A DNA stretch of 64,000 nt from Crossaster papposus (taxonomy: Eukaryota > Echinodermata > Asteroidea > Velatida > Solasteridae): the NCBI GenBank assembly GCA_037893245.1, contig JBAIAA010000401.1, positions 248,001-312,000 on the forward strand. Reading direction: 5' to 3'. A model generated the notes under the pieces. It did not search any database. It was not told the origin of the DNA and was given only the letters and a program-made list of their open reading frames with translations. The position numbers and the translations under genes are program-made. Shown in pieces: positions 39,301 to 57,626 of the stretch. Within the stretch, counting starts at the first letter, position 1, and the number at the start of each line of letters is the position of its first letter.

Positions 39301-41340
39301 CAGGGAGACCCTGTTGAATTCTGTGAGGTTCAGGACAGCAAGGCATGAGACTTGTCAAAATGTTAGAAATTTGGAGAATGCACAGGCATTTATATGTGAG
39401 TGACCCACATGGTCACGGCACAGTTCGGGGTCAACTGTAAGTGTATGTACACTTACACCTTGCATGTGTGTCCCCACTAAAATACATAATGCCACTGGCC
39501 AGTTATCACTGTTTCAAGTCAATAAAACTTCAACTGTTGGAGTTTGGCAGGTTCAGTACTGTTAGGTTCAGTACAGTTTACCAAAAATTACTGAACATGT
39601 GTGAGCTGTTGAAGTTTGTTAGGTTTGGTATGTTTCCTAGTGCGAGAGCCTAGGGGGTTAGGGTTAAGATGTTTAACCCTAACTCCCTCACCATTGTTAT
39701 TGAACAATACAATTCCTCCAAAATCCTCCAACTTCCTTTGTTGTGTAGGGAGTTAGGGTTAAAGTAAGTTTTCTCACAAACACGTTTTGTGACACCCTAA
39801 ATTTATAGAGCGCTGTAAAAAGTATTTATCGCAAAACCCCCAAGTGTTATGTACCATTGGAAAGCTCTCTTTCTCAAGAATTTGAAAATACCAATATCTC
39901 AATTTTCAATATTTCCGACTTTACTCTCATTTTGTGGTGACAGGTCACAAATGGCGGAAGGTCCTGAAAACATTTCTTTGCTATGGACATAGATCTGAAG
40001 AAAGGGTACAAAAAACGTGATAATAAAATGTGGACTAAACTAAATTCATGAAAATGGGGGCAGTGTTTGAAAATAGGTTTTTCCAGCAATTGACGGCTGG
40101 GAATTTTGTGTTGTGATTTTGCAGTATGCTTGAGACTAATATTCAATTAAATTGGTGCTTTCAGCAATCATTCTGGTCAATTAAAAATTCTCCCTTTCCC
40201 TTGTGGAACGTACCCAGGCTCTGAAGACCGTCCTTGGGATGCGCCAATCTCAGATGCTGAATGCATTATCAGCTCGTCAGGGATCTCTGAATGATTTAAA
40301 GATACACTCTCGATAGATCGCTTTAGCAGGAAGCATGCCTGTTTACGGGCCAGGGGGTCAGTGTGGACAAGACCCGTCTGAACCACCCTCCAAAAACCAT
40401 CGTCAGTGAGAAGGCTAGAGCAGGCAGCTGTCGACTGATCAGGGATGAAGGGTTTTAACTCGCCAGGGACGTAGAACTCTGACAGGCCGCACAGAGCAAT
40501 GTACACATTGGAGGTTTGTTTGGATTTCCCATCCGCCAACGTTCTGTAAATACCGAGGAGTCTCTTCCAGATCGCCGCTAGCCTGACTGAATGTTTATCC
40601 CTTGACAAGTCGAGGAGTTTCGGGAGCAAGATTCCCGAGACGTGTGAGCAAGTGGCCGCCTCGCTGAACTCCAAGACGTCTAAGAGACACTCGAAGCAAT
40701 CGTCAAACCATGGGTCCTCAACTTGTGCATACGCTGAATCGGTGTCCAATGATCCGACTGTTTCAAACGTGTAATACAGAATCTCCAAGACGTTCTTCAT
40801 TAAAAACACACAAGAGCCTTTTTCGTCGTCATTTTCGACCGATGTCAGGGAGACTAGCAGCCGCTGTTCCTCGCTGTATTTGCAGAGACTCTCCACGCAT
40901 TTTCGTCTGATTCCAGATTTCAGTTCCTGGTACCTCGACCCGTTAGGAGTCGATAATATAGCGGCAAAGAGTTGGTAAACCGACTGCTTTGTCTCCTCAC
41001 TGTGCGACCTATGTTGCAGGGCACTGTAGCCCACGGTCTCGACCAATCGGACGAGATCCGGTGAAGCGACGCATTGCGGGTCGGCCCGCATGGACTCCAG
41101 CAAGAACAGGATCATTTCCGACACGTGCTGCTGGCGATCGGTGGATTCCGCAAGGCCATCTCCCTCTGCCTCACTCTTGTCGCTAGCAACTCTGTGCAAC
41201 TCCACAGCTGAGTCAATGATCCGGCGCACAAGCTCCTTCAAGTCAAATGCGTGGCTGTTCTTTAGCAGGCTTACAATTTTGAAAGACATTCTGCCAAGCT
41301 GCTTATTTTGCCCACGTTTGATGATGCAGCTGATGTGGTA
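135..41340 (-). CDS. TARBP1: TARBP1 (tRNA Gm18 2'-O-methyltransferase), multi-exon, partial at both ends
   Basis: Spliced host gene on the minus strand; 22 exons total about 1,475 codons (human TARBP1 is about 1,620). TARBP1/Trm3 proteins have a long alpha-helical N-terminal region and a C-terminal SPOUT (SpoU) domain that methylates the 2'-OH of G18 in the tRNA D-loop. Identification rests on ordered similarity recalled from vertebrate TARBP1: a segment ending DPLARKQACFLLKRS, then VHVVTPVMPRMNSL, HPSWLMVLFSRCF, METVFHILPALSSL, and finally VQKKIIPW and LVLVASLIDKAPNLGG, which begin the SPOUT domain. Introns use GT-AG except one apparent GC-AG. Phases join without conflict except E12/E13, E18/E19 and E21/E22, where a short exon is probably missed. 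Exons upstream of 41340 were not found; the SPOUT core and its catalytic motifs lie left of base 1. No frame breaks are seen within exons, so the gene looks functional despite heavily invaded introns. Confidence 0.9.
345..900. other. Intronic, no recognised feature
   Basis: AT-rich intron of TARBP1. An open frame at 444-833 (plus) has no recognisable domain and no coding bias; I see nothing functional. Confidence 0.5.
905..1395. repeat. Tandem duplication of an intron segment, one copy containing a MITE
   Basis: The stretch about 905-980 plus 1214-1275 repeats with divergence at about 1276-1395 (shared landmarks: AACAGTCCT, GGCACATCCCT, AATTACACCTCTACTA, GCTTTATACAATAGG, GTAGGTAAC, ACCTGTACAACT). 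The left copy contains the TTAA element at 977-1213; the right copy lacks it and serves as an empty site. The duplication includes the 3' end of exon E21 and its splice donor. Confidence 0.75.
977..1213. mobile_element. Family A MITE (CCAGTTCGCGCC ends), TTAA target site
   Basis: 229-bp element flanked by TTAA at 977-980 and 1210-1213. Ends CCAGTTCGCG and CGAACTGG. It shares internal sequence with at least nine other copies in this window. TTAA duplication with short inverted ends is typical of piggyBac-mobilised non-autonomous elements. Confidence 0.85.
1384..1635 (-). CDS. TARBP1: TARBP1 exon E21
   Basis: 252 bp, phase 0 at both ends; acceptor CCACAG, donor GTAGTT. Starts TVFHILPALSSLPDDQLLQP, aligned with 'TIFYILPRLSGLIEDEW'. 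The last bases of this exon and the following intron are tandemly duplicated further downstream. Confidence 0.87.
2037..2078 (+). repeat. Fragment of the deuterostome-type SINE core
   Basis: Contains TTGGGCAAGGCACTTTATCA and CTCATTGCTTCTCT, the same core as in the full SINE at 33231-33595 (opposite orientation). Confidence 0.6.
2084..2235. repeat. Degenerate minisatellite, unit about 30 bp
   Basis: About five diverged units with AAGTGG, AAACSGTTTTCA and CCTTTTCAC in each. Intronic. Confidence 0.7.
2389..2470 (-). CDS. TARBP1: TARBP1 exon E20
   Basis: 82 bp; acceptor TTTGCAG, donor GTACGT. Encodes NKLDSYFYLFKVHPVQDYTM then E, matching 'EHFFFATFHPLKDYCLE' in vertebrates. Completes a threonine codon from E19 and ends in phase 0. 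Confidence 0.88.
2480..3250. other. Intronic, no recognised gene
   Basis: AT-rich, apart from a short GC-rich patch at 3018-3052 made of CGCGCTCGCGCTCGCGCTC. No coding signal. Confidence 0.4.
3260..3480. repeat. Simple repeats: AT/TCTAGA tract and (TACATG)n
   Basis: 3267-3291 alternates TATATATCTAGATATATC; 3370-3455 is built from GTACATGTAC palindromes. Low complexity. Confidence 0.75.
3480..4730. other. Intronic, with a short hairpin at 3889-3920
   Basis: TTTAAGGAGAGC and its reverse complement GCTCTCCTTAAA are separated by 5 bases. The rest shows no gene or element I can name. Confidence 0.45.
4733..5199. mobile_element. Family C element (CCCTAAC ends), TTAA target site
   Basis: TTAA at 4733-4736 and 5196-5199; ends CCCTAACCCCCTAG and GGTAGTTAGGG. 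Internal sequence rich in AACCTGCCAAAC-type repeats. The same element occurs inverted at 39180-39667. Its right TTAA is also the left TTAA of the next element. Confidence 0.8.
5196..5564. mobile_element. Family B MITE (AGGTAGGATACACC ends), TTAA target site
   Basis: 361-bp element with perfect ends AGGTAGGATACACCATT and AATGGTGTATCCTACCT, flanked by TTAA on both sides. Other copies at 7830, 14211, 30843 and 42795. Confidence 0.87.
5649..5836 (-). CDS. TARBP1: TARBP1 exon E19
   Basis: 188 bp; acceptor CTCCAG, donor GTAAGA. Encodes FYQRAFPVVFPWALIQTSSI then RHLALLCAKKMWQDC, aligned with '[28 protein letters not shown]' in vertebrates. Phase 0 in, two bases out. A short CCAGTTCGCGCC-family element lies 37 bp beyond the acceptor. 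Confidence 0.87.
5870..6035. mobile_element. Family A MITE, internally deleted
   Basis: TTAA CCA at 5870-5876 jumps directly to the second half of family A (GGCCGATAGTGCC onward) and ends GCGCGAACTGG TTAA. Sits 37 bp upstream of the E19 acceptor. Confidence 0.75.
6124..6518. mobile_element. Family C-like element, degenerate
   Basis: Left end ACCCTAACCCTTTGAG after a mutated TTAA (TTGA), right end CGTTAGGC before TTAA. Internal AATCCxxCA motifs resemble those of the copy at 22616-23209. Confidence 0.5.
7100..7279 (+). pseudogene. Penelope-like element fragment, GIY-YIG endonuclease
   Basis: The frame starting TGC at 7100 reads YRIPCECGKVYIGETDRDL, then TRLNEHKAHGRKGDFDKSSI and HSHTEDHQ before a stop. 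CG-VYIGET-R...RL-EH is the GIY-YIG core found at the C-terminus of Penelope-like retroelement proteins. No reverse transcriptase lies upstream, so this is a severely truncated copy. Confidence 0.8.
7397..7763 (+). mobile_element. SINE (TGAGTGAGTGAG head) with 13-bp target duplication
   Basis: Flanked by TGCAAAACCACAA at 7397-7409 and 7751-7763. The body begins GTGAGTGAGTAAGTGAGTTT and includes the CCGGCATCAGTGGCCATATT segment shared with the copy at 29072-29367. A long target duplication implies LINE-type mobilisation. The family is not named with certainty. Confidence 0.75.
7830..8163. mobile_element. Family B MITE, TTAA target site
   Basis: Element 7834-8159 with ends AGGTAGGATACAC and GTGTATCCTACCT, TTAA on both sides. 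Internal sequence about 85% like 5200-5560 by eye. Confidence 0.85.
8160..8255. mobile_element. Family B MITE, truncated, sharing a TTAA with the previous copy
   Basis: Starts AGGTAATATACAGCATTTTT directly after TTAA 8160-8163 and continues with AATGGGTAGATTTGGGGTTT, which in full copies lies near the opposite end. Truncated on the right. Confidence 0.6.
8322..9084 (+). mobile_element. piggyBac transposon, internally deleted
   Basis: TTAA at 8322-8325 and 9081-9084. Perfect 13-bp ends CACTTTGACTGCT and AGCAGTCAAAGTG. Two copies of TGCTAAGCCCGAGAWTTCTC lie near the left end. Inside is a broken piggyBac-like transposase start (next entry). The RNase H-like catalytic core is absent, so this is non-autonomous. 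Confidence 0.85.
8599..8981 (+). pseudogene. piggyBac transposase N-terminal remnant
   Basis: An ATG at 8599 (MAAPRKR, then stop) is followed in another frame by IDEIFANSDSKASEFGGDDD and later GNTSDVGSESNHSEELDD, the acidic leader typical of piggyBac/PGBD transposases. It is broken by stops at 8708 and 8803. A 24-bp repeat coding RGRGCGN-like units follows (8837-8945), then sequence near the right end. Confidence 0.65.
9416..9656. mobile_element. Family A MITE, TTAA target site
   Basis: Element 9420-9652, ends CCAGTTCACGCC and GGCGCGAACTGG with TTAA on both sides. Confidence 0.85.
9660..10200. other. Intronic, no recognised feature
   Basis: AT-rich sequence between a MITE and exon E18. An expected short TARBP1 exon could hide here, but I cannot identify it. 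Confidence 0.35.
10206..10355 (-). CDS. TARBP1: TARBP1 exon E18 with a GC splice donor
   Basis: 150 bp, phase 0 at both ends. Encodes ERAGQILEDVLTSVVGEKQS then VRYLMIWTATQLMMLVPSLE, matching 'NGIIDRIFQAGF...YFIEWIII' in vertebrates. The exon-intron boundary reads AAAAG then GCAAGT, a typical GC-AG donor. About 25 residues expected before the next exon are not found, so a small exon may be hidden between 5837 and 10205. Confidence 0.8.
10463..10880. repeat. Minisatellite, six units of 71-73 bp
   Basis: Units start near 10481, 10552, 10623, 10696, 10769 and 10840 (GAGATGTAGTGCCTCT). They are nearly identical, with a 2-bp CT insertion in two. A further partial unit resumes at 11565-11600 after a LINE insertion. 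On the gene strand each unit contains a strong splice-donor match. Confidence 0.9.
10880..11562 (+). mobile_element. LINE 3' end (CR1/L2-like), truncated, inserted in the minisatellite
   Basis: Encodes the typical C-terminal tail of CR1/L2-type reverse transcriptase proteins: LHWLPDSFRINFKIRLLTFK, ALHGLSPKYLQDL, AFSVAAPKLWIALPFHIR and FKCNIKTHLF, stop at 11205-11207. A non-coding 3' region ends in (ATT)n at 11547-11562. 5' truncated. Confidence 0.85.
11801..12216. mobile_element. Family D element (TGTGACC ends)
   Basis: Inverted ends TGTGACCTGCTCTACAAAAA and CTTTTGTAGAGCCGGTCACA. Related copies at 12968, 20156, 20552, 31902, 37396, 37468 and 38753. Superfamily not determined; the target duplication is short or absent. 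Confidence 0.75.
12596..12752 (-). CDS. TARBP1: TARBP1 exon E17
   Basis: 157 bp; acceptor ACACAG, donor GTATGA. Completes an arginine codon from E16 and ends in phase 0. Encodes RRVILTNFLLLIATTGSAEC, plausibly the vertebrate 'NRVWQTLLVLFPRL' segment. Similarity is weaker than in neighbours; the phase fit supports it. Confidence 0.75.
12810..13600. mobile_element. Partial GGCTCACAAGATTCG element with a family D insertion
   Basis: The left part (CTAGTAATGCACTGAAACTT, TGGTGATGACGTAGGCTCAC) matches the end of the element at 17674-18875. Inside, a TGTGACCTGTCACCGCAATA element runs from 12968 to about 13530, its right end decayed. Flanked by ATATCTCTAA-type repeats. Confidence 0.6.
13600..14210. 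other. Intronic, no recognised feature
   Basis: AT-rich; no inverted repeat or coding signal I can support. Confidence 0.35.
14211..14585. mobile_element. Family B MITE, old copy
   Basis: Ends AAGGTAGGATACACTATAGG and GGTGTATCCTACCT; flanking TTAA mutated (TTCA/TAAA). Opposite orientation to the copy at 5196. Confidence 0.75.
14636..14877. mobile_element. Family A MITE, TTAA target site
   Basis: Element 14640-14873, ends CCAGTTCGCGCCGGATGACG and CCCGGCGTGAACTGG, TTAA on both sides. Confidence 0.87.
14932..15174. mobile_element. MITE with GGGGCCAATTTCACGAAGCT ends
   Basis: Long inverted repeat: GCTGCTAAGCACAAAAATTT near the left end and its reverse complement near the right. The right end is 17 bp from the donor of exon E16. 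Family not identified. Confidence 0.8.
15192..15388 (-). CDS. TARBP1: TARBP1 exon E16
   Basis: 197 bp; acceptor CATCAG, donor GTAGCC. Begins VISSILTLGEGKPKIVTVFA and contains DDEESRTLALRAVGNQIPLL. Ends with two bases (AG). An inverted-repeat element starts 17 nt inside the downstream intron. Confidence 0.85.
15436..15650. mobile_element. TTAA element with CCCTTTAAACTCAGGC ends
   Basis: TTAA at 15436-15439 and 15647-15650; inner ends CCCTTTAAACTCAGGC and GGCTGAGTGCAAAGGG. piggyBac-like by target site. Confidence 0.7.
15908..16301. mobile_element. TTAA MITE with AGGGATCGTATACG ends
   Basis: TTAA at 15908-15911 and 16298-16301; perfect inverted ends AGGGATCGTATACGTTTGGT and its complement, about 24 bp. 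Confidence 0.85.
16655..16712. repeat. 17-bp tandem repeat beside exon E15
   Basis: Four units of TTGGTAGGTGCCAAG, starting about 25 bp inside the intron after the E15 donor. Confidence 0.85.
16735..16920 (-). CDS. TARBP1: TARBP1 exon E15
   Basis: 186 bp, phase 0 at both ends; acceptor CCTAG, donor GTAATC. Encodes IGQDTIPLCLELVDAAWSTT and later AQTFWLLYSSAVELIFQQCF. A 17-bp tandem repeat starts about 25 bp past the donor. Confidence 0.85.
16930..17670. other. Intronic, no recognised feature
   Basis: No gene or inverted repeat recognised; short A- and G-runs at 17377-17410. Confidence 0.35.
17674..18875. mobile_element. Inverted-repeat element (CTAGTATTACACC ends) carrying a nested MITE
   Basis: Ends CTAGTATTACACCAAAACTT and AAATTTTGGCGCATTACTAG; subterminal GCTCACAAGATTCG on the left and its diverged complement on the right. 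Contains AAAGATATCTCTAA repeats and the nested element at 17783-18659. The right end is 49 bp from exon E14. Confidence 0.7.
17783..18659. mobile_element. PIF/Harbinger-like MITE, 871 bp, TAA target duplication
   Basis: TAA at 17783-17785 and 18657-18659. Ends GGGTGGGTTTTCACGGGGCA and TGCCCCGTGAAAACCCACCC are perfect complements at the edges. A 3-bp TWA duplication with G-rich ends is typical of PIF/Harbinger. Inside, a 37-bp segment (CGTAGTTCTCACAACGTATG) is duplicated in tandem at 17891-17960. No transposase. Confidence 0.8.
18925..19159 (-). CDS. TARBP1: TARBP1 exon E14
   Basis: 235 bp; acceptor CCCTAG, donor GTAAGG. Completes the valine codon of E13. Contains ICNLLMHTKWQCLGVLLQNR and DAVPIMQCAKVLVSR, matching 'VLPVFHCLKVLVPK' in vertebrates. 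Confidence 0.88.
19203..19903. mobile_element. pogo/Tigger-like element, TA target duplication
   Basis: Ends CAGTGAAACCTCGGAATAAC and GTTATAGCGGCATTTTACTG flanked by TA. CAGT-AAACCTCG-TATAACGAAC is the hallmark end of pogo/Tigger (Tc1/mariner superfamily). 697 bp with no intact transposase; non-autonomous. Confidence 0.8.
20156..20549. mobile_element. Family D element
   Basis: Ends TGTGACCAGCTCCTACAAAA and TGGTCACA. Adjacent to a second copy, sharing ATATGTGACC context. Confidence 0.65.
20552..20986. mobile_element. Family D element, second copy back to back
   Basis: Left end TGTGACCAGCTCCACAAAAA; right end CCTTTTTGGTGGAGTGAGTC then ACA. Internal sequence resembles 11801-12216 (GAACTCCAAGGAAGTAA, CAAAGCCTGTTTTCTCAGTT). 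Confidence 0.65.
21074..21231 (-). CDS. TARBP1: TARBP1 exon E13
   Basis: Encodes TFVACRLLLWLLQMNRGSDL and ends LKDV before GTAAGT (phase 2). Two acceptors fit the frame: TCTAG at 21232, used here, or CCCAG at 21220 (12 bp shorter). Leucine-rich helical sequence. Confidence 0.75.
21304..21433. mobile_element. Family A MITE, left half missing
   Basis: Starts inside the family (GACGTATATAAATGCGTGGG) and ends GGCGCGAACCGG TTAA. Confidence 0.7.
21556..21753. mobile_element. Small inverted-repeat element
   Basis: GTTTGTTTATGGTGTAAATC at the left and ATTTACACCATAAACAAAC at the right, about 25-bp ends. Family unknown. Confidence 0.65.
21828..21960 (-). CDS. TARBP1: TARBP1 exon E12
   Basis: 133 bp; acceptor CCAAG, donor GTAAGC. 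Encodes SRHQQGFAVRLCLGIYPYFL and ends with two bases of a codon. The next recognised exon begins in phase 0, so a small intervening exon is expected or one boundary here is misplaced. Confidence 0.7.
22017..22080 (-). CDS. TARBP1: TARBP1 exon E11
   Basis: 64 bp; acceptor GGACAG, donor GTCCAC (weak, but starts GT). Found because it repairs the phase between E10 (0) and E12 (1). Encodes EPEYSQRMELAGSIFTE. Confidence 0.72.
22128..22343. mobile_element. Family A MITE, TTAA target site
   Basis: Element 22132-22339, ends CCAGTTCGCCCC and GGCGCAAACTGG; 51 bp from the acceptor of exon E11. Confidence 0.82.
22467..23400. mobile_element. TTAA element (GATTTCATGTGCCAAACCTG ends) with nested family C copy
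   Basis: Ends GATTTCATGTGCCAAACCTG and CAGGTTTGGCACATGAAATC; inverted repeat about 45 bp (on to TTTGTCCAYGGACG). TTAA on both sides. A family C element occupies 22616-23209 inside it. Confidence 0.78.
22616..23209. mobile_element. Family C element, TTAA target site (nested)
   Basis: TTAA at 22616-22619 and 23206-23209; ends CCCTAACCACCCCAATTCCT and GGGTTAGGGAGTTAGGG. The interior is full of GCAGGATTTTGCAGGATTCA repeats. A diverged inverse copy flanks the LINE at 24704-28130. Confidence 0.75.
23766..23863 (-). CDS. TARBP1: TARBP1 exon E10
   Basis: 98 bp; acceptor after a T-rich tract plus TTGCAG, donor GTAGAG. Encodes RVRQEMFSLMSSCQEEIYSF then INRRLLS, the vertebrate 'SEFILRRLTMNEL' region. 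Ends in phase 0. Confidence 0.86.
24189..24394 (-). CDS. TARBP1: TARBP1 exon E9
   Basis: 206 bp; acceptor TTTTCAG, donor GTATAT. Phase 2 in, 1 out. Contains HIYVPVIKADTGLQLLHGIL, matching vertebrate 'AYMPLLKTDRCLQLLLKLL'. Confidence 0.88.
24466..24707. mobile_element. Family A MITE, TTAA target site
   Basis: Element 24470-24703, ends CCAGTTCGCGCCGGAGGACG and CCCGGCGTGAACTGG. Its right TTAA (24704-24707) also starts the next element. Confidence 0.85.
24844..25845 (+). pseudogene. LINE ORF2 N-terminal part: endonuclease C-half and linker
   Basis: 333 open codons. VIYRPPG, LIITGDFNIHVD, GHILDLLITR and ISDHSAIFFSL are the later motifs of the endonuclease/exonuclease/phosphatase fold (GDFN, SDH). 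Then the linker TSWYSNAVYEAIRKRRLLER and KRKHYCRIVDKC. The frame stops where the foreign segment begins. Confidence 0.88.
25949..26020 (+). tRNA. Initiator tRNA-Met-like sequence (CAT), probably decayed
   Basis: 72 nt matching animal initiator tRNA-Met: GGGCCCATAACCCAGAGG anticodon arm (anticodon CAT at 25980-25982), T arm CGAGG-ACCGAAA-CCTCG, 3' strand CTCTGCTA. Base 1 is C rather than A (no pair with T72) and the first anticodon-stem pair is A/G. TTTTT follows at 26029-26033. Could be a tRNA gene with two defects or a tRNA-derived insertion. Confidence 0.6.
26125..26196 (+). pseudogene. Second initiator tRNA-Met-like sequence, acceptor stem decayed
   Basis: 72 nt: GTGGCGCAGTGGAAGC, GCTGGGCCCATAACCCAGAG and GGATCGAAACC are close to canonical, but the 5' acceptor strand (GACATGG) no longer pairs with CTCTGCT and the T stem has one mismatch. 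Followed immediately by ACAAGTTTTT and then LINE RT sequence. Confidence 0.6.
26199..27422 (+). pseudogene. LINE ORF2 C-terminal part: reverse transcriptase
   Basis: The open frame enters the RT domain at SAYRRHHSVETLLAHL, then VLLDLSSAFDTVDHDIL (first catalytic Asp), VPQGSVGGPLLF and YHCYADDLQLYV (YADD active site). C-terminal LKSLHWLPICDRIAFKVLLL and FKRALKTHLF end the protein. RT palm motifs upstream of SAYR (about 100 residues) are absent. Confidence 0.9.
28137..28351 (-). CDS. TARBP1: TARBP1 exon E8
   Basis: 215 bp; acceptor TGTGCAG, donor GTGAGT. Starts VCEWLKASQ, as in the vertebrate 'LCDWLRVNE' segment, and ends with two bases of a codon. Runs through PTRVACLVLLAVDAQY (vertebrate 'LMVLLAVDVEG'). 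Confidence 0.88.
28885..29065 (-). CDS. TARBP1: TARBP1 exon E7
   Basis: 181 bp. The first base completes AGA from E6; ends in phase 0 before GTATAC. Contains LMLQAVLRLQDRDTTSLLQL. A SINE copy begins within about 12 bp of the splice acceptor (see the finding). Confidence 0.85.
29072..29367 (+). mobile_element. SINE (TGAGTGAGTGAG head), second copy
   Basis: Same body as 7410-7700 (GTGCTGGCATCGGTGGCCAT, GGAATGTGTACAAATATAAG). Possible 5-bp ACATG duplication. Begins about 10 bp upstream, in gene sense, of the exon E7 acceptor. Confidence 0.78.
29770..30612. mobile_element. Family A MITE split by a GAGACCGAGACC-rich element
   Basis: Family A left half 29774-29877 and right half about 30462-30608. 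Between them is a 580-bp segment with edges CAGTGTTGTAGTCGAGACC and GGCCTCCATCACTG (partial inverted ends) and many GAGACCGAGACC copies. Old and diverged. Confidence 0.65.
30652..30784 (-). CDS. TARBP1: TARBP1 exon E6
   Basis: 133 bp; acceptor TAG, donor GTACTT. Encodes FLREFVAAVSRQFWSPISLT, aligned with the 'FLLKFIRKM' region. Phase 1 in, two bases out. Confidence 0.85.
30843..31210. mobile_element. Family B MITE, left end decayed
   Basis: Internal match to 14215-14581 over nearly its whole length; right end AATGGTGTATCTTACCT then TTAA 31207-31210. Contains an 18-base G run at 30885-30902. Confidence 0.75.
31902..32118. mobile_element. Family D element, short form
   Basis: Ends TGTGACCTGTCACCACAATA and TTTTGTGGTGACAGGTCACA; 217 bp. 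Right edge 52 bp from exon E5. Confidence 0.8.
32171..32318 (-). CDS. TARBP1: TARBP1 exon E5
   Basis: 148 bp, phase 0 in, one base left over. The acceptor at 32319-32321 was chosen because it gives FLLGTVLPVLNDDNLYAG in phase 0, matching vertebrate 'FIIGPLMDALSESSLYS'. Donor GTAAAA. A TGTGACC element ends 52 bp beyond the donor and a CCAGTTCGCGCC element starts about 100 bp beyond the acceptor. Confidence 0.88.
32415..32964. mobile_element. Family A MITE with a 300-bp insertion
   Basis: Left half 32418-32541 starts CCAGTTCGCGCC; right half about 32850-32960 ends CTAACTGG TTAA. The insert between, 32542-32845, begins GAGTTAGTCTTGCATATGCA and I cannot classify it. Confidence 0.7.
33231..33595 (-). 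mobile_element. tRNA-derived SINE with deuterostome-type core
   Basis: On the minus strand: a tRNA-like head with B-box GGTTCGAGTCC (33521-33531) and A-box-like TGGTCCGGAGC, then the core CCCTTGGGCAAGGCACTCTG, TTGCTTCTCTCCACCCAGGA and GTAAAATGGGTACC, then a LINE-like tail GCGCTATATAAGAACTAACA with (ATT)n at 33231-33248. The core matches what I recall of Deu/Meta-type SINEs. Confidence 0.8.
33906..34055. mobile_element. Family C-like MITE, 142 bp, TTAA target site
   Basis: TTAA on both sides; ends CCCTCACCCTGCCAGATC and TGGAGGGTTAGGG. Inserted in a region of repeated ATGTCTGAAACGTAA motifs (33850-34240). Confidence 0.75.
34800..35395. repeat. Diverged inverted repeat of AGCTGCGCCA/TACGCA motifs
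   Basis: TTGTGTAAGCTGCGCCACTT on the left; GTGGCGTAAG, GCGCAGCTACGCAACATT and GTTTCGTGAAATGC on the right. Probably an old MITE; ends not resolved. Next to exon E4. Confidence 0.45.
35415..35566 (-). CDS. TARBP1: TARBP1 exon E4
   Basis: 152 bp. Completes a serine codon from E3, then reads DRPILHPSWLMVLFSRCF, matching the conserved HPSW block. Ends GAG followed by GTACAG, phase 0. Confidence 0.9.
35755..35925. mobile_element. Family A MITE, left part missing
   Basis: Starts AAACACGCCAAGTTCAAGTT, ends GGCGCGAACTGG TTAA at 35922-35925. Confidence 0.75.
36260..36329 (-). CDS. TARBP1: TARBP1 exon E3
   Basis: 70-bp exon, AG acceptor (36330-36332) and GTAAGC donor, phase 0 in and 1 out. Encodes VHVVTPVMPRMNSLIQAA, one of the clearest TARBP1 signatures ('IHVIKPVLPKLNNL' in vertebrates). 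Confidence 0.9.
36469..36583. mobile_element. Short family C element, TTAA target site
   Basis: TTAA at 36469 and 36580; ends ACCTCAATCCGTCAAAATCC and TTGGGATGGTTAGGG. 107 bp. Confidence 0.6.
36793..36907 (-). CDS. TARBP1: TARBP1 exon E2
   Basis: 115 bp, AG acceptor and GTACGT donor. Completes the split glycine codon of E1 and ends in phase 0. Encodes VWGDFFLMYETLDEVQ, aligning with the vertebrate 'ENY-ILIMETLE' stretch. The intron upstream (36908-40213) holds nested TGTGACC and TTAA elements. Confidence 0.88.
36947..37384. mobile_element. Family C element, TTAA target site
   Basis: TTAA on both sides; ends CCCTAACCCCCTAGGC and TTAGGTAGGGTTAGGG. Interior with many TACTAxTTTTTAC motifs including TTTTTACTACTAGTAGTAAA. 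Confidence 0.75.
37396..38414. mobile_element. Family D element containing another family D element
   Basis: Outer ends ATGACCTGTCACCACAAAAT and ATTGTGGGGACAGGTCACA. The interior matches 38753-39949 (AAATATGAAGGGGTG, AATTAACACGGTAATTAAAT, CACAAACACGTTTTGTGA), interrupted by the copy at 37468-37891. Confidence 0.8.
37468..37891. mobile_element. Family D element, nested
   Basis: Perfect ends TGTGACCTGTTCCCACGAAA and TTTCGTTGGAACAGGTCACA (one indel). Inserted at CAAAA/ATATG; comparison with the uninterrupted sister at 38820-38829 shows at most a 2-bp duplication. Confidence 0.82.
39180..39667. mobile_element. Family C element, inverse copy of 4733-5199
   Basis: TTAA on both sides; ends CCCTAACTACCCCAAACC and GCCTAGGGGGTTAGGG. 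About 95% like 4737-5195 by eye, reverse orientation. Confidence 0.82.
39673..39762. mobile_element. 82-bp mini family C element, TTAA target site
   Basis: Ends CCCTAACTCCCTCACCATTG and GTGTAGGGAGTTAGGG. A nearly identical inverted copy is at 43177-43266. Confidence 0.8.
40214..41340 (-). CDS. TARBP1: TARBP1 exon E1 (N-terminal helical region, 1,127 bp)
   Basis: The longest host exon, about 375 codons. An in-frame ATG sits at 41289, but the frame stays open upstream to an AG acceptor at 41341-41343 (reading YHISCIIKRGQNKQLGRM), so it is probably not the first exon. The exon ends at a GTACGT donor in phase 2. Near the end is FWRVVQTGLVHTDPLARKQA, the best match to the conserved TARBP1 block. 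The protein is helical and leucine-rich, consistent with HEAT/ARM-like scaffolding. Confidence 0.85.
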
Positions 41341-43896: not shown

Positions 43897-44159
43897 CTCC
43901 CAGCAATGAAAATGATATGTTTTCTAATTGTTTAAACCGGTAGTGATACACGATAGCGTGTCCAGGTTCAATATTTTCACAATCCACACACACAACAATG
44001 AGAAACGGTCAGAAATAGTTTTAAACGTATTTATAACTAGATTTATATAGATTTTAATCATTAAATTTTGTCCCTTGAAAAAAAAACTATCCAGGGTCGG
44101 CCGTATTTTTAGGGTCGGTCGGGTTACGCCAACATAACATTTTTTTTTTTTATGCCTTA
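43794..44159. mobile_element. PIF/Harbinger-like MITE, TTA target duplication
   Basis: TTA at 43794-43796 and 44157-44159. Ends GGCATAAAAAAAAAAAATGT and ACATTTTTTTTTTTTATGCC; inverted repeat continues through TATGTTGGCGTAAC. 360 bp. A T-run of about 33 lies at 43866-43898. Confidence 0.85.
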
Positions 44160-44762
44160 GGGTCAGTCCATTCTATGTTCTAGGGTAAATAACGTCGAGA
44201 GTTGCGAGTGGGCCCTGCATTCTATAATTGCTCCAAATATTCTATAGAAGAAAACAAATGTATTGCCTACAAACATTGTTATTGTAGAAGTCAGTAGTTG
44301 GTAGGGTAGGCCTACCCATGGAGGAATGGCCTACCCTACAAAAGGGCTTCGAATTGGCAACGGTAATAAGACGTAAATAAAGAGCCATTTACACTACAGC
44401 CCATGTAGTTGGTAATACACCGACACCGTATTCCATAAAAAATACTGATCAGTGCACTTAAGATTTGGAAAATGGCCTATGGGAGACGTCATCCTTACTA
44501 TTTGAGTTGGGAGCCTTAAAATCTTGACGGCCTTGTCTACGTCTAACTAACTTCTCAGTGCAAATCAGTGCAGCCTTGCATGTGGATTCCGTGAGAAACT
44601 TGTCTGAAAATATACTTTTTAGGAAAAAAAGTTTTAGAAAAAAAGGGGCCGTTTTCCAAACTCTGGCTTCGGTTCTGTTGTGGCTGTAAATGAAGCCTCC
44701 GTAAGATAAAGCTTGTGTCTAGCCGACTAGACTACGGACGACTACATGCTGTACCACTAAGG

Positions 44763-44821
44763 GTACTACTACCCCCCCCCCCCCCCCCCCCCCCCCTCCC
44801 TCCCTCCCCTCCCCTCCATCC
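44763..44821. repeat. C-rich tract
   Basis: About 26 consecutive C followed by CCCTCCCTCCC blocks; the minus strand has four or more G-runs in close order, a G-quadruplex pattern. Assembly length in such a tract is unreliable. Confidence 0.8.
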
Positions 44822-44858
44822 TACCACCACCACCACGCCCCCAACTGCATTTGTAGCT

Positions 44859-44933
44859 AGACCGAGTTAAGATAATGCCCAAATGTTAAAAAAGCGATAA
44901 CTAGAGGCCAGTATTAACTCGGTCTAATTTGTA
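44859..44933. repeat. 75-bp hairpin MITE
   Basis: TAGACCGAGTTAAGATA versus TATTAACTCGGTCTA with a 40-bp loop. Confidence 0.65.
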
Positions 44934-45013
44934 GCCTTGTTATATCAATCATGATCAACTCCAGTCCCACTAATGTGCTGCACTACATACAGCGCAGCAT
45001 ACTGGGGGCACAC

Positions 45014-46036
45014 TTAGTCCGAGTAACTTGGACCCCAAAATCACTTTTTCAACATTTGGACATGGTCTGGTGATATTATTAGGGTCCAAGCAAGAGCCAT
45101 TTAAATCGCTGTACGAAATGTCTGCACATCGATCCCCAATGACCTCCCACACTTATCCCCCAAAATGTCACGGAAAACAGCCACTTACAAAAATGCTGCT
45201 TGTCCCCAGTAGGCACTAAGGATCAAGGAAGACTAACACTATCGGTGTGTTCTTACCTTTCAAAAAGTGAGAAAATCGGGCCTCAAAACGTGGAGCAATG
45301 TTTGGTCCATTCAAACAAGTGCATTTTAATCGACGAACATTGCTCCACATTTCGAGGCCCGATTTTCTCACTTTTTGGAAAGGTAAGAACACACCCATAG
45401 TGTTTCTTCCTTGATCATTTAATTATTGCCTACTGGGGACAAGCATGGAGAAATGTCTTATTTCTCCATGGGACAAGCAGCATTTTTGTAAGTGGCCGTT
45501 TTCCATGACATTTTGGGGGATAAGACTTATCCCCCAAAATGTCATGGAAAACGGCCACTTACAAAAATGCTGCTTGTCCCATGGAGAAATAAGACATTTC
45601 TCCATGCTTGTCCCCAGTAGGCAATAATTAAATGATCAAGGAAGAAACACTATGGGTGTGTTCTTACCTTTCCAAAAAGTGAGAAAATCGGGCCTCGAAA
45701 TGTGGAGCAATGTTCGTCGATTAAAATGCACTTGTTTGAATGGACCAAACATTGCTCCACGTTTTGAGGCCCGATTTTCTCACTTTTTGAAAGGTAAGAA
45801 CACACCGATAGTGTTAGTCTTCCTTGATCCTTAGTGCCTACTGGGGACAAGCAGCATTTTTGTAAGTGGCTGTTTTCCGTGACATTTTGGGGGATAAGTG
45901 TGGGAGGTCATTGGGGATCGATGTGCAGACATTTCGTACAGCGATTTAAATGGCTCTTGCTTGGACCCTAATAATATCACCAGACCATGTCCAAATGTTG
46001 AAAAAGTGATTTTGGGGTCCAAGTTACTCGGACTAA
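45014..46036. repeat. Perfect 1,023-bp palindrome with nested hairpins
   Basis: Arms 45014-45524 and 45526-46036 are exact reverse complements (511 bp each) around a single centre base, A45525. Each arm is itself an imperfect inverted repeat centred near 45320 (TTCTTACCTTTCAAAAAGTG versus CACTTTTTGGAAAGGTAAGA), and a small palindrome CATGGAGAAA-7-TTTCTCCATG sits near the centre on each side. No coding content; open frames are mirror images. Could be a recent foldback element or an assembly artefact. Confidence 0.9.
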
Positions 46037-46670
46037 TATACTATATAGGGCACAGTGCCCGGCACGAGTGGGACTCAGACTAGATCAACTGTCATGGCTC
46101 AGCCCGGCATGATCAGCGGCGGCTAGTTTAAAGTACAATTTGCAGTGCAATCCCATATAAGAACTTACCTTTATTATTATTAGCCTAAAGTAACTTAAAC
46201 TATACTAAACAAATTTATATTGGCAGTATATGTTCCCGTAAAATTTGCCAAGTTCATCTCTACTTGCTGTCATATTGATTGCGCCCTCTATAGATCAGTT
46301 TGATAAATTAACGTCACTCTATAAACGGAGATATTAGTCCAGCTGCTAAGGCCCATAATGTGGGACAATTGTGCATTTTGTGGTAAAAGCATGAAACTTT
46401 CTACAGTTGTTATATATACCCTAAATGTCGTTTTTAGACGTGGACCCACCTCGGATCTTGCCCTTTTTAGGGGCGGGGCTATGTTTTCTAAAAGTGGGGG
46501 GGGGGGGGGGAATTATGACTGTAATACATAATAACAATATAATGATCCTTTTGAAATCAATAGTTTTGTTTATTTCTGCCCCTTTTATGGGCGGAGTTAC
46601 ATTTTTGAAAAGTGGGAGGCATGATTTTCCGTTTTTCAGCTTGATTTTTATATGTTTGTTTTTTTAAGAC

Positions 46671-49600
46671 CAAGGTCTGACTTAAGAGCTCCTTTAGATC
46701 GGGCAGGAGTACAAGGAGTTCATCCAGCCTCTACCAATTTATCTTGCCAGTGCGGTAGAGTAGGCAATTAATCTTCATCAACATAGAAACGAGACAAGAA
46801 GAGGCCGGCTGTAACGCCTATTGCCATAACGGGCCCAGCTCAACAGGTACAGCTAGGAAACCGGTAAATGGTGATCCTTCTGGTGTCGAGCCAAAGTATG
46901 ACGAGCTGGGTCCAAACCAGCAAGGAAGAGTCAGCTCTGAAAAAAAGCATCACCAGGAACCACACGGATTTATGTATTTGCACCTATAATGTGAGAACAC
47001 TGAAGTCAGAAGAAGACCTAGACACCCTCCTTGAAGTAGAAGTTGCACATAATACGGCTCGCAGAAACACGAAGACCAATCAAGCTACGTGGGTGTGGCC
47101 ATACATTATTCACAACTTCTGCAACGAAACGGGGACTCAACGGAGTTGGATTTCTGGTTAATAAGGACATTGAAAATAATGTACTGAAATATAAAGTATC
47201 AGACAGGTTTGCGTATTTGAAATTACAAATCAACAAGCAACACGCAATGAAGATTATTCAAGTTTATGCACCCACTACATCTTATGATGATGAAGCAGTG
47301 GAAGATCTCTACACTGGCATAGACCGGACAATGACAACTGAATGTACATCCTTTACCATACTTATGGGAGACCTAAACGCAAAGGTGGGAGTGAGAAAAT
47401 GTGAGGAAAAGAAAGGTGTAGGCCCATTTGGGACAGGTAACCGGAACGAGAGAAGGCTTCTGCGATATGTTGCAAGTAGAAAGCTGTGAATTGGCAATAC
47501 ATGCTTTGAGAAACCAAAAGATAGATATTGGACATGGGAAAGTCCAAATGCAGCAACCCATAACTTGATAGACTATATCATCACCGACCACAAAGGAAAC
47601 TTAATGGATGTGGATGTTATACCAACGGTTGACACAGGCAGTGACCATATATTCGTCAGAGCAATAGTACGGATTAATACGAAGATGGAAAGGATTAGAA
47701 GAATGAAGCAGTCAAAGAAAAGACATATTGATCTGGGAAAGCTTTCCGACAAGCAACACCAATTGCAGCTTGAACTAAAGAATAGATTCTTACTTTTTGA
47801 AGACTCTGTAGAGGATGATCCAATTTATGTTGCATATGAGCAAGTCACCAGCATTATCATGAAGGAAGAGCACAGAAGCTAGCTAAAGGTCAAAAAGAGA
47901 AGGTAAACGCCACAAGTGGTTGCACAGAAGAGATCCGAAAGTTGAATGAAAAAAGAAAAGATCACAACCCTTCACACAGACATCAGTGAGAAATCAGATC
48001 GAGTATACAGAATTAAACAAGACGATCCGCAAGATGAGACGGCAGCAAAAGAGACAACACAGAACCAAAATGGTGAAAGAGGTGCTGGAGAGCAATTAAA
48101 ATGGCAAAAAATCATCAATTCAAAACTAGAGGGAGGAAAAAAGCTGTTATCATCACTGAAAACAAAAGATGGGACGGGAGTTACTGACAAAACTAAAATC
48201 ATAAAAAAACATTGAAGAGTTCTATAAAGAGCTGTACAACACTGATAGACCAAATTGGAGAACAGAAGAAGACTGGAATAAAAAGGCCGATAGTGTACAA
48301 CACATTATGAAGGAAGAAGTACAGAATGCTCTAGACCAAATGAAGAAAGGTAAGGCTTCTGGAGAGGACCAGTTAACTTCTGACATTTTAAAGCTGGGAG
48401 GATACTATTAAGATATTGACAAAATTGTTCAACAGGATCCTTCAACTGGAACAAGTTCCTACCCAGTGGAATAAATCTAAGGTCATCGTATTATTCAAAA
48501 AAGGGGACATGAAAGACATCAAGAATTACAGACCCGTCAGTTTGCCACTGTACAAAGTCTTTACCAAAATCATTCTTGCAAGAGTCCAAAAACAGCTTGA
48601 TGATAATCAGCCAAAAAGAACAGGCATGCTTCCGAGGAGGATTTAGAACATCAGATCATCGACACACCTTACGTCAGATAATTGAAAAGGCGAAAGAATA
48701 TCGTTTTAACATCTGCCTATAGGCTTCGTGGACTATGAGAAAGCATCTGATAGTTTAGACCATCAGTCACTTCTTGATGCATTGGAGAAACAGATCAGCA
48801 ATGGCAAATATATCCGTCTCATCAAAGCTATTTACAAAGATCCCAGTGCCAGAATTCATTTGAAAAATACTATATACCACCAGTACTTTCTAAAAGGTGC
48901 CAGACAGGGTGATCAAATTTCTCTCAAACTGGATTGGCAATCGAAAGGAATTGTAATAAATGGGGAACAAGGTTTGCAGATGACATCATGCTTGTCAGTC
49001 ATAATCCCTAGGAGCTGCAGATAATGATTCGTAAGTTGAGTGCAGAGAGTAAAAGGCAGGACTCAAAATGAACATCAAGAAGACCAAAGTAATGATGAGC
49101 AACAAGCTACAAGACAATACAATAACAGTTGATGGCACGACAATCGAGAAGGTGGATAGCTACATATACATTGGTAAAAACAACACCCTTGAAAACAAAA
49201 CGGCAGGTGAAGTGCGAAGAAGAATACAGTTAGCTTGGGTGAAATTTGAGAAACTCAGCATCATACTCAGAGACGAGGATCTCCCACTCTCCCTAAAAAG
49301 TCAGATCTTCAATCAATGAATAATTCTGGTACTATCCTACGGGACAGAAACTTAGAAATTGGAAAAGAAACATATAGAGTCACAGAAAGAGCAATGGAGA
49401 GGATCATGGTAGAAGTTACAGGAAAGAACAGGGTCAGAAATGAGGACTTACGAAAGAAAACAAATGCTAGGGACATCATACAGGAAATAAAAACAAAGAA
49501 ATGGAGATGGGCAGGCCATCTTGCAAGGCGTCATGACAACAGATGGACACATTGTATAACAGAATGGAACCCAAGACCACAAACGAGACGAAGAGGCAGA

Positions 49601-51553: not shown

Positions 51554-51854
51554 GTCTTAGTGGGGGGCTGTGTAGCGCCGGCGCCGGTTTTGGGGCAGAG
51601 GGCGCTAGAACGATTCCACGGTGGAATCGCTCTGGTGGTTTCCGCGGGTGCGCGCGGGGGCCCGTGTTGGGTTGCGCGCACGCCAAACCAGTTAGATCGA
51701 GTTTTAGAGACCGCGTGTGAAGCGGAGTTTTGTACGACAGTTGTCGGTAGAGTTTTGGAGTAATAAACCAGGCTAAAGGCAGCCATTTTCACAGAAGAAG
51801 TGTTTCCGTGTGTCGGTTAATGCGTCAGGATACCCAGGGAGAAATCACGTTACA
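51554..51854 (+). repeat. 5' LTR
   Basis: 301 bp identical to 60058-60358 except G51646 versus A60150 (a CpG position). Ends in CGTTACA. The start is ambiguous: TGTA at 51571 would pair with the terminal TACA, but 16 further bases upstream (TCTTAGTGGGGGGCTG) are also shared by both LTRs. AATAAA at 51762-51767. Confidence 0.9.
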
Positions 51855-51855
51855 T

Positions 51856-51873
51856 TGGTGGCAGCGGTGGGAT
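51856..51873 (+). promoter_or_regulatory. Primer-binding site for tRNA-Leu
   Basis: TGGTGGCAGCGGTGGGAT, one base after the LTR, is complementary over 18 nt to the 3' end of animal tRNA-Leu(AAG/UAG) including CCA. Confidence 0.82.
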
Positions 51874-51893
51874 AGACTGACGAAGGAAAACAG

Positions 51894-52415
51894 GTGAAGT
51901 TTGGCATGTTTTTGAGGAAAACGAGTGGCCTGGGGGCCGACTCGCCATGCGGCGAGGAGGCCGGCCAAGGGATGGGCCCAGGAAGCGGGGCTCAGACTAC
52001 GGAGGGGTCCGGCGGACAAGGGATCACGCCGGGGGACCTGGAGGCTTTCTTTAGGGATGTACCTGAAAGTTCTGGGGGGGGCATGGGGTCCTGGGAGTCG
52101 GGTTGTTTTGTGGGAGAGGAATTGGGGGATGAGAGCGGGGATTTTGGGGACATGGACAAAGGGCCGGGGGGTGGCAAGGCGTCCACTCCGATTTGGAGTG
52201 AGGGCGCCCTCACCCATGAACGGTCCGGAGTCCCAGTCGAGTTTGGGAAGGGCCCGGCCCGCGCAGCGGAGGGCGGCGCGGCAGACGGTGTGTTCCCCAC
52301 GGGACGTTCCCGAGCCGCGTCCGCCGATGCGGCGGGGGCGGGGCCACGTCAAAACTGTTCCCAAGGGTCTGAAAATAAGAGTACCGAGTCCCGGGGGGCC
52401 CGGCCCGTGCCGTAG
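51894..52415 (+). CDS. Retrotransposon leader ORF, in frame with gag-pol
   Basis: 173 codons, Gly/Ser/Glu-rich and low complexity (MFLRKTSGLGADSP start). It ends with TAG at 52413-52415, followed without a gap and in the same frame by the ATG of the long ORF. It is probably the N-terminus of the same polyprotein interrupted by an amber codon, or a separate leader peptide. Confidence 0.6.
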   Translation: MKFGMFLRKTSGLGADSPCGEEAGQGMGPGSGAQTTEGSGGQGITPGDLEAFFRDVPESSGGGMGSWESGCFVGEELGDESGDFGDMDKGPGGGKASTPIWSEGALTHERSGVPVEFGKGPARAAEGGAADGVFPTGRSRAASADAAGAGPRQNCSQGSENKSTESRGARPVP

Positions 52416-55400
52416 ATGGCGGCGCGACCGATGAGTTGCGTCATACGGAGCGACCCCAGGTTGTTGCCGGCGGTGCGGCGGGGGCGGGGCCCCGTTGGGG
52501 CAGTTTCGGGGCCTGCCAGGCCACCCCAGAGTGTTTCCGGTCCAGGGGGGGGGGGCCCGCCCAGGAGTGAAGGGGGCGGGGCGGGCGGGGGGTCGTTCCA
52601 ATCGGAACGCCCGCGGGCCAGATCCGCCGGAAGCAGTGGAAGGGAACACTCGAGACTGCTACTCACGAGGGGGCGGGGAGCGGAACCAGTGGAGCTGCTC
52701 CTCACAGGGAGCAACGGGACGAGGCTGCTACGCACACGAGGCAACGGGTCGGAACAGCCGGAGCTACTGCTCGTGGGGACCAACGGGACGGAGCTGCTCC
52801 GCGCACAGGGGAATGGAGCGAAGTCGTCGGAATTGCCCCGCGCGCAAGCGCATGGAGCGGAACCGATGGAGCTGCTCCGCACACGACTCAGCGGGGCGGA
52901 GTTGCTGCAGCTGCTCCTCACACGACCGGACGGGGCGGAGCTGTTGGAACTGCTCCGCGCGCATCCCAATGGAGCGGAGCCGACGGGTCTGCTCCGCGCA
53001 CGACTCAACGGTGCGGAGCAGCCGAGTTCGCTCCTCCCACCTCCCTACGGAGCGGAGCAACCAGGATTGCTCCTTACGCAACCCAATGGAGCGGAGCAAG
53101 CGGAGCTGCTCCGCACACGCCGCGACGGTGCGGAGCAGTTGCTCCTCACACCTCCCTACGGAGCGGAGCAACCGGGATTGCTCCTCACACAACCCAATGG
53201 AGCGGAGCAAGCGGAGCTGCTCCGCACACGCCGCGACGGTGCGGAGCAGTTGCTCCTCACACCTCCCTACGGAGCGGAGCAACCGGGATTGCTCCTCACA
53301 CAACCCAATGGAGCAGAGCAAGCGGAGCTGCTCCGCACACGCCGTGGCGGTGCGGAGCAGTTGCTCCTCACACCTCCCTACGGAGCGGAGCAACCGGGAT
53401 TGCTCCTCACACAACCCAATGGGGCGGTGCCGTCGACACTGCTCCGCACACAAAGCAATGGAGCGGGGCCGACGGGGCTGCTCCGCGCAAGACTCAACGG
53501 TGCGGAGCAACCGAGTTCGCTCCTCACACCTCCCTACGGAGCGGAGCAACCAGGATTGCTCCTCACACAACCCTATGGAGCGGGGCCGGCGGGGCTGCTC
53601 CCCACACGACCGGATGGCGCGGAGCTGCTGGAGCCGCTCCGCGCGCGAGCCAGGAGGGCGGAGCCGCCCTGGCCTGGCCACACGCCAGCCGAGGGACCGT
53701 CCCGAGGGGGAGATACCGGGGCGAGCAGCTTGGCGGTGCCCCCCGGTGGACCCGGACGGGCCCCCGTGGCGGGGCGGAATGACGGAGCGGGCGTCGGGGG
53801 AACTACACCCGGCCGGACGGCAACGGGAGCCGCCGCCGCATCGGAGCTTGTGGGGTCGGGCGGCCGGAGGCCGATGATGCTGCCAGACAAGTTCGACGGC
53901 GTCGCGTCCTGGTCGGACTACTTGATCCATTTTGAGAGCGTCGCGGCCGTCAATCATTGGAGTGAGGCAGAGAAGACGATGTACTTGGCGTCCCACCTCA
54001 AGGGTACGGCGCAAGAAGCCCTAGCGGATATGGCGCCAGAGGCACGGGGGGAATATGCGACTATTTTGGAGAGCTTCGAGCACCGATTCGGCGTGACAGC
54101 ACAGGTTCCGCTTCATCGGGCCCAGTTGTCCATGCGGACGAGGGGCCGCGATGAGTCGCTCAGCAGCCTAGGGCAGTCCATTCGGAGGCTGGTGCTGAAA
54201 AGCTATCCGAAGTTGCCTGCCCAAGCCCGGGAAGATTTGGGCGTGGAGGCATTTCGGCGGGCCCTGGGGGAGGAACAACTGCAGCGGCATCTGTTCTCCC
54301 GGAAGGCGGCGACATTGACCGAGGCCATTACGCTGGCAACGGAGATGGAAGCCTTCATGAAGTCCCAGGAGTTCGACCGGAGAGGGAAGGCCGGGACCAG
54401 GGACGTGAGGGTGGTGGAGCAACTCGCCCCCGCCCCCGTCGAGGAGCCGGTGGACGTCCTACCAGTGGGATACAACCCGCCAAAACGGGCTCAGGTAGAG
54501 TGCTATGGATGCCACAAGCGTGGCCACATCGCGAGGTTTTGCCCCCGCCAGCAAGGGAAGAGTAGCCCCCCACCTCGTCGGGCCGGAGAGGGAGGGGCAC
54601 GGGGATCAGCGCCCCTCCGACCGACGGCCCCGGCTCGACCAGCTGCGGCGGGGAAGCCGGGCGCCAACTACTTGGAGGGGATGGTGGCGGGAAGGCCGGT
54701 GCGTTGCCTTCTCGACACTGGGGCGACGGTGAGCCTGATCGCCGGGAAGTTCTACCACGCGTGGCTCGACAAGAAGGGACAGAGTCGCCGCCCCGCGACC
54801 CCGGGGCTAAGGATGGCAGACGGCAGCCCCATGCCGACAAAAGGGAAGGGAGGTTTCGAGTTACAGCTGGGCGACCTCCGTATGACTCACAGTTTCACCG
54901 TGGCCGAGATCGAACCAGACGTGATCCTGGGAATAGACTTTTTGGCCAAGTACCACTGCAAGTGGCACTGGGACGACAACACGGTCACCCTCGACGGAAG
55001 GACATTTCCGCTGGGGAGTGCCACCCGCGCACCTATCGTGGCGAGGGTACAAGTGGCGGAGAACGTGGTGGTACCGGCCGGTCACGAGGCGATCCTCGCG
55101 GGCGAGATACGGAACGGGTCGCGGGTGGGGGTAGGAATGGTCTACCCCAGTCTGGAGGCGACGGACAGCTGCCGGGTGGCGGTCGCCACCGGCCTGGTCG
55201 ACACCACAAATGGGAAGGTGCCCGTGAGGGTTTTCAACCCGACGGCCGATCCGGTGACGGTGTACCAAGGTAGTCGTCTGGCCTTGTTCTCGCCAGTGGA
55301 GGAGTTGGACGTTTGGGAGCTAGAGGAGGGGCAGCGGGAGTTCACCGCCGGGGTCGCGTCTGCGAACGGCCAGCGGGAGGTACCTCCCCACCTGCAGGAT

Positions 55401-56723: not shown

Positions 56724-57626
56724 ATTCAGAGGTTGGGGTGCTACGAGTTCGACGTAGAGCATCGGGCAGGCAAGAAACACACGAACGCCGACGCAGTTTC
56801 TAGGATTCCGTGCGGCCAGTGCGGGCGCTCGGGAGAGGTCAGTCAGGAATGCTTTACGAAGGGACCACTGTTGGGGGCCGTCGGTGGAGCCGAGCACGAG
56901 GAGACCGCCACAGTGGAGGGACTCCTGGCGGCTTGGGAGCCGGAGGAGTTGAGGCGGGAGCAACGCGACGACCCGGAGTTGGGCCGGATCGTCCGCTGGT
57001 TGGAAGAGGGAGCCCCCAGACCCGTTTGGTCGGACGTGTCGGCCCTAGACGAGGGCACGAAAGTCTGGTGGGCAAAGTGGGAGACCCTCCGTCTGTCTCG
57101 CGGGGTGTTGCAGATCAGATGGGAGCAGCTCCGGGACGGTCCCCCGGTGTGGAAGGTGGTGGTTCCGCGGACGCGGGTGGAGGACGTCCTGCGACTGACG
57201 CATGACGGCAGGACGTCGGGGCACCTGGGGATCGCTCGGACGACCGTTCGGCTGAAACAGGCGCCGGTGTACTTCCGGGATATGAGTCGCCGGGCGGAGG
57301 AGTGGTGTCGGAAGTGCCACAAGTGCGGGTCCAAGAAGCCGCCTCCTCGACCCCTCCGGGCACCGTTGCAGCAGTACTTGGTGGGCGCGCCTATGGAACG
57401 CCTGGCGATCGACCTCACGGGGCGGTTCCCGAAGACCAAAGCAGGGAACACGAGCATCATGGTGGTGGCGGATTACTTCACGAAGTGGGTGGAGGCATTT
57501 CCGATCCCGGACCAGACGTCGCGCACCGTGGCCCAGACCCTCGTGGAGCAGGTGGTCACCCGGTTCGGGGCTCCCCTCGAGATCCACACGGATCAGGGGA
57601 AGGAGTTCGAGGCCCGGCTATTCTAG
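56724..57626 (+). CDS. RNase H end and integrase N-part
   Basis: Continues the same frame after TAG. RNase H tail YEFDVEHRAGKKHTNADAVS; integrase zinc-binding HLGIARTTVRLKQ with CRKCHKC; catalytic core starts LAIDLTGRFPKTKAGN (first Asp) and IHTDQGKEF (second Asp). Ends at a second in-frame TAG, 57624-57626. Confidence 0.9.
   Translation: MQRLGCYEFDVEHRAGKKHTNADAVSRIPCGQCGRSGEVSQECFTKGPLLGAVGGAEHEETATVEGLLAAWEPEELRREQRDDPELGRIVRWLEEGAPRPVWSDVSALDEGTKVWWAKWETLRLSRGVLQIRWEQLRDGPPVWKVVVPRTRVEDVLRLTHDGRTSGHLGIARTTVRLKQAPVYFRDMSRRAEEWCRKCHKCGSKKPPPRPLRAPLQQYLVGAPMERLAIDLTGRFPKTKAGNTSIMVVADYFTKWVEAFPIPDQTSRTVAQTLVEQVVTRFGAPLEIHTDQGKEFEARLF

Follow-up and report, generated by a model that had tools for sequence, protein, structure and literature searches.

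A perfect palindrome in Crossaster papposus is one copy of a high-copy foldback transposon family

Foldback transposons and their inverted repeats

Mutator-like elements typically combine target-site duplications (TSDs) of 9 bp with terminal inverted repeats (TIRs) that are hundreds of bases long, and within the same account Rehavkus is described by a minisatellite before the 3' TIR and a PHD-finger transposase (PMC6446971). Tm1 is a Mutator/Foldback family of root-knot nematodes, in which TIRs were 100% identical over the compared parts in 5 of 61 elements, with a mean of 93.15% (PMC3169594). In Drosophila, the TIRs of Galileo are >99% identical within two copies that differ from each other by ~7% (PMC2775673, PMC3573991). 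Galileo copies also occur at Drosophila inversion breakpoints, where chimeras have been ascribed to ectopic recombination exchanging TSDs (PMC2775673). Further, inverted repeats are maintained in Caenorhabditis, the published account of which is one source of possible mechanisms (PMC1803023).

The palindrome described here lies in the window, i.e. the whole stretch of 64,000 nucleotides of Crossaster papposus DNA that was analysed. It is exact over 1,023 bp (511 + 1 + 511 bases), with the left arm (45014..45524, plus strand) matching the right arm (45526..46036, minus strand) at 511 of 511 positions around A45525, a length far beyond chance expectation. A sequence-only reading of the locus had claimed both this perfect symmetry and an imperfect hairpin within each arm, and both claims were borne out. 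The left arm consists of an outer terminal segment U (45015..45150, plus strand), the first stem X of an inner hairpin (45151..45302, plus strand), a loop and the second stem X' (45336..45524, plus strand), which in usual copies is followed by U'; at the far end, the right outer terminal segment U' (45900..46035, minus strand) mirrors U. X and X' differ by 11 mismatches in 164 aligned positions (6.7%) and by seven gap runs, one of 34 nt. The inner hairpin looks old, whereas the outer symmetry is perfect, at 0 differences in 511 positions (95% upper limit 0.58%). Besides the palindrome, no inverted repeats of comparable size were found in 44000–47200.

The family and its termini

The complete mobile element measures 1,021 bp, TAGTCCGAG...CTCGGACTA (45015..46035), and its ends are common to independent copies, most with 9-bp TSDs there. 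Arm matches begin at arm position 1–2, and the outermost T/A pair (45014/46036) was rejected as part of the element, being outside the conserved family end. Terminal repeats had also been thought to continue beyond the palindrome. This was not upheld: the termini typical of the family are TAGTCCGAG (45015) and CTCGGACTA (46035), and the outer homology is a 22-bp match at 73% that is located in the flanks and does not extend the terminal repeats. The supposed extension into ATCAACT...AGTCCCACT consists of flank sequences instead, with inverted repeats AGTCCCACT/AGTGGGACT at 44963–44971 and 46067–46075 and a direct repeat GATCAACT at 44953–44960 and 46083–46090. Perhaps these flank repeats represent an older short insertion that the palindrome jumped into. 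Pieces resembling them were seen by eye beside two other copies (L044, L067).

The assembly searched comprises 1.02 Gb in 1,841 contigs. Searching it for the arm alone, as the sequence-only reading had proposed, revealed a dispersed high-copy family: 1,104 candidate places were returned, 40 of which were scored and gave 116 matches. The terminal 21-mer TAGTCCGAGTAACTTGGACCC has 323 forward and 251 reverse exact occurrences, against 0 for the reversed-pattern control, with positions given for the first 100. Common fetched copies are ~610 bp long and form a single hairpin in the order U-X-loop-X'-U'. An inverted repeat over the whole length, many dispersed copies and no listed ORF of at least 80 aa inside the palindrome are features of foldback and MITE elements. 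The window palindrome belongs, as a single copy, to a family of foldback transposons that is non-coding and high in copy number. The earlier suggestion of a foldback element holds, as the boundaries of the palindrome coincide with those of the family, whose dispersed copies have TSDs of ~9 bp.

Other arrangements of the family sequence were also observed. Inverted pairs of the terminal 21-mer only ~110 bp apart (C99:256335, C113:1716864 and C123:488430) suggest a very short palindromic subfamily. U-X copies are numerous within a larger, young repeat (L035–L059; contigs C31, C59 and others); on C31 most of them point the same way, at distances of tens of kilobases or more, and most of those inspected begin after GGGCAAACA, as if from one insertion site. 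The left flank of L070 is similar to that of these U-X copies. A phage similarity search gave no match.

Elsewhere in the window, direct repeats at 51554–51854 and 60058–60358 (99.7% identical) bracket a GC-rich (62–68%) stretch whose frames have matches to reverse transcriptase, RNase H, aspartyl protease and integrase. This stretch (51554–60358) is a young Ty3/gypsy-type element, far richer in G+C than its surroundings, and the first part of its frame contains tandem repeats of 39 and 111 bp (52790–53664). LINE-type endonuclease and reverse transcriptase frames occupy 24844–27422; a tRNA match lies between them (25949–26020) and an 88% repeat of the same at the start of the second frame (26131–26197). 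A 370-codon frame on the minus strand (40177–41289), which we take to resemble TARBP1, had no Pfam match at E 0.001.

Target-site duplications were scored by an automatic rule run over all 91 fetched loci, of which 45 had an end pair, corresponding to 25 distinct insertions. With a match of at least 8/9, a TSD was present at offset 0 in 16 of the 25 (control 1/600) and at an offset of up to 15 bases in 20 (control 2/600), the controls being pairings of flanks from different insertions. The sole offset-0 control match paired L009 with L025, which have common flanks and are probably one insertion. No TSD was scored for L019, L062, L070, L074 and L084; L070 had been misplaced by the rule, and its TSD by eye is GGCAAAAAT/GGCAAACAT. 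Similarly, a TSD was found in 17 of 23 hand-picked copies (control 1/506). Direct repeats flanking other copies have 9 bases, once 10, and a mariner-like TA duplication was dropped after the 9-bp duplications were observed. For the window copy, the candidate left TSD GGGCACACT (45006..45014, plus strand) matches the candidate right TSD GGGCACAGT (46048..46056, plus strand), which lies 12 bp past the element end, with 12 extra bases ATATACTATATA (46036..46047, plus strand) in between. This duplication is imperfect (8/9, offset 12), and the chance of such a match within the first 30 bases is ~0.004.

Both the 23-copy set used for TSDs and a 21-copy set used for arms were hand-picked from the fetched loci, and 26 of 50 loop-centred places were covered. 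Fetched copies outside both sets are C784, C520, C794, C89, C719, C253, C106, C691, C135, C118, C268, C603, L032–L059 (U-X copies in the larger repeat), L072, L073, L075, L081, L083, L089 and L090, while L074 and L084 belong to the TSD set only. C794 (6/9) and C118 (3/9), outside the 23, have no clear TSD.

By its ~9-bp TSD length and long TIRs only, the family is filed as Mutator-like; it is putatively non-autonomous. Mutator-like elements have TSDs of 8–11 bp, mostly 9, and long TIRs; the family agrees on both counts, its arms measuring a few hundred bases (511 for the window copy), although the window copy itself has only the 8/9 match at offset 12. The duplications of 9–10 bp depart from the 7-bp TSD of Galileo (P superfamily). 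Merlin is another superfamily with ~9-bp duplications. Membership of such a superfamily rather than Mutator is rather improbable in our judgement. No autonomous copy was found, and visual inspection of the 30 longest frames in the loci fetched by then revealed no transposase of Mutator-like type; foldback structure moreover occurs in several superfamilies, the described Galileo being of P type with 7-bp TSDs. Against this stands the association of 9-bp TSDs and TIRs of hundreds of bases with Mutator-like elements (PMC6446971).

An inverted dimer and block-wise symmetry of arms

In the window, the order U-X-loop-X' is followed by its own reverse complement, and U' and U are absent at the centre, where the single base A (45525..45525) sits in the X'–X join, GATAAG-A-CTTATC. 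Relative to the usual ~610-bp hairpin, the window copy is thus an inverted dimer. The join pattern GGGGATAAGN{0,8}CTTATCCCC matched in the window and at a single other site, in a bacterial-type contig, and nowhere else; this search was exact over 18 fixed bases and hence misses diverged dimers. The contig of L060 (G000:C8:3992261) encodes bacterial-looking proteins (trigger factor and FolD by eye) and looks like that of a symbiont or contaminant. A genome search with a 121-bp query over the dimer centre crossed the join only in the window, and yielded no second dimer, among 40 scored of 808 candidates. Because no second dimer was found, movement of the dimer itself cannot be shown.

The left arm contains a 25-bp mini-palindrome insertion (45445..45469) flanked by 9-bp direct repeats GGGACAAGC (45436–45444 and 45470–45478), and the exact symmetry places the same insertion, mirrored, in the right arm (45581..45605). 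It is absent from four compared relatives, and the arm matches of many relatives break at arm position 432 and restart at 457. Two independent mirrored insertions are implausible, and the presence of the same insertion in both arms therefore indicates that one window arm was copied from the other.

Three further copies bear on how arms become symmetrical: C18 (within C18:3799390-3800460), C116 (within C116:1659570-1660660) and L080 on contig C334 (within C334:791219-792259). In whole-element comparison, the arms of C18, of C107 (the same insertion) and of C116 are identical save one base beside the loop, and C18 and C116 have a common asymmetric loop. C18 and C116 differ by 13 substitutions and two indels, and every one of these is mirrored, standing in both arms. 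All 15 differences lie within arm positions 122–351, i.e. in 230 of 418 positions, for which the probability is ~0.0001 in a post hoc test. L080 has the same asymmetric loop and an exact 9/9 TSD; on the left, it agrees with C18 (state A) at both indels and at 12 of the 13 substitutions, and on the right with C116 (state B), again at both indels and 12 of the 13 substitutions. In a maximum-likelihood tree of 18 arms, the left arm of L080 grouped with C18 (support 87) and its right arm with C116 (support 98). Sister arms in that tree were those of L079 (92), L091 (98) and L082 (88), the L079 pair having support 0 in a quicker tree. As comparison of these A/B, A/A and B/B elements around one asymmetric loop shows, the arms of one element can turn identical as a block. 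Most simply read, A/A and B/B elements would have arisen from an A/B element via arm-to-arm copying.

Steady homogenisation is at odds with the wider family. The two arms were sisters in 8 of the 21 hand-picked copies and not in the other 13, and only three (window, C18 and C116) had no arm difference within the first 300 bases. Copy-private substitutions summed over the 21 copies comprised 203 in one arm and 6 mirrored, columns with >40% gaps having been dropped from the comparison. The window copy had 0 private substitutions, one-arm or mirrored, in the compared stretch, and its 9 mirrored departures from the majority are all common to other copies. Nine carriers of the C18 insertion, identical over 80 bases of flank on each side, had four private substitutions, all four unmirrored and each in one arm only. 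In addition, L080 moved, or persisted, with unequal arms. The excess of one-armed private substitutions, the low share of sister arms and the one-armed mutations of the C18 carriers together indicate that arm-to-arm copying is episodic.

The exact symmetry (511/511) at a single locus could in principle come from an artefact of assembly or polishing, in which a read turned back at 45525 or a consensus copied one arm onto the other; the right flank (46037–46314) is likewise without a second assembled copy among the scored matches (40 of 227 candidates). A read that had turned back would show the left flank twice, yet the flanks differ and the symmetry ends at the transposon ends. Other copies in the same assembly retain ~2–17% arm mismatches, near-perfect palindromes with intact TSDs occur at two independent insertions (C18 and C116), and the nine carriers of the C18 palindrome are concordant to within one base each. 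Assembly fold-back is therefore unlikely as the source of the palindrome, and the assembler or template-switch error that had been raised at the outset retains only a slight probability. Very recent formation by one inverted duplication, with no conversion between arms, is a possible if somewhat doubtful explanation. One duplication suffices for the window copy, mirrored insertion included, the arms differ at 0 of 511 positions (the upper limit being that given above), and private mutations in other copies are mostly one-armed. However, youth leaves the C18/C116/L080 set, with its mirrored differences around a common loop, unexplained, and the imperfect window TSD is a mild sign of age.

Recombination of an A/A with a B/B element could instead have produced L080 as a chimera, rather than L080 descending from the common ancestor of the two. 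A precedent in which arm identities follow the same pattern has been published for Galileo, but its reciprocal exchange swapped TSDs (PMC2775673), whereas the TSD of L080 matches at 9/9. Moreover, arm-to-arm copying at some time is needed in any case for the differences by which A/A and B/B mirror each other's arms, and a chimeric L080 is unlikely in our view. Arm-to-arm copying, as an occasional event, is the best explanation of C18, C116 and L080. Of the two origins named by the sequence-only reading, extreme youth and homogenisation, both remain in play; the family evidence favours copying between arms, episodic and not continuous.

A non-autonomous Mutator-like foldback transposon, rewriting between its arms and a fold-back origin of the dimer form, taken as one explanation, the account that we consider probable. 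The element would presumably be mobilised by a transposase made elsewhere. While single-stranded, or once broken, in the course of replication or repair accompanying transposition, it would fold, and a template switch of synthesis from arm to arm, or correction of the mismatched hairpin, could rewrite one arm from the other; a tie of arm copying to transposition or its repair is what we infer. For the window copy, synthesis may have folded back and switched where X' borders U' (GATAAG/CTTATC), copying U-X-loop-X' and the 25-bp insertion into a second, inverted half. With two family ends retained, the dimer would have been inserted, or have remained, as a unit of 1,021 bp.

A more speculative and, to us, doubtful extension is that the fold serves the family for proof-reading: in some transposition cycles, or close to them, a hairpin stage would let one arm template the other, with the window dimer as a mis-registered product. 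If true, decayed A/B elements could be reset to A/A or B/B, and transposition ends restored with no intact donor required. In eukaryotes, long perfect palindromes that lack a spacer are usually considered short-lived, and members of this family stand at perfect or near-perfect symmetry in three independent places (window, C18 and C116). The A/A, B/B and A/B trio around one asymmetric loop may serve as a natural record of whole-block arm copying, and the origin and persistence of palindromes becomes testable with reads from this species.

Comparison with known systems

The family resembles Tm1 in its foldback composite inverted repeats, its TSDs (8–10 bp, mostly 9, in Tm1) and the presence of MITE-like members; unlike the window family, in which none was found, Tm1 has members with a putative transposase (PMC3169594). 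This likeness is one of description and not of compared sequences, and the Tm1 account, in the parts available to us, contains no A/A, B/B and A/B sets (PMC3169594). Nor was a published set of this kind found in a limited literature search covering titles, abstract openings and passages. Galileo is similar in its high within-copy arm identity and in the existence of chimeric copies with unequal arms, and differs by its placement in the P superfamily, its 7-bp TSDs and a middle of ~350 bp between the TIRs (PMC2775673, PMC3573991).

The proposed copying is comparable to quasi-palindrome correction in yeast, where imperfect inverted repeats are perfected from the opposite arm by template switch; the yeast arms have a few bases, whereas the mirrored block here has ~230 bases per arm (PMC3820800). 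Similarly, FoSTeST, described for animal TIR transposons and proposed for the capture of outside sequence rather than for inverted self-dimers like that in the window, combines fork stalling and template switch with subsequent transposition of the rearranged element (PMC8277862).
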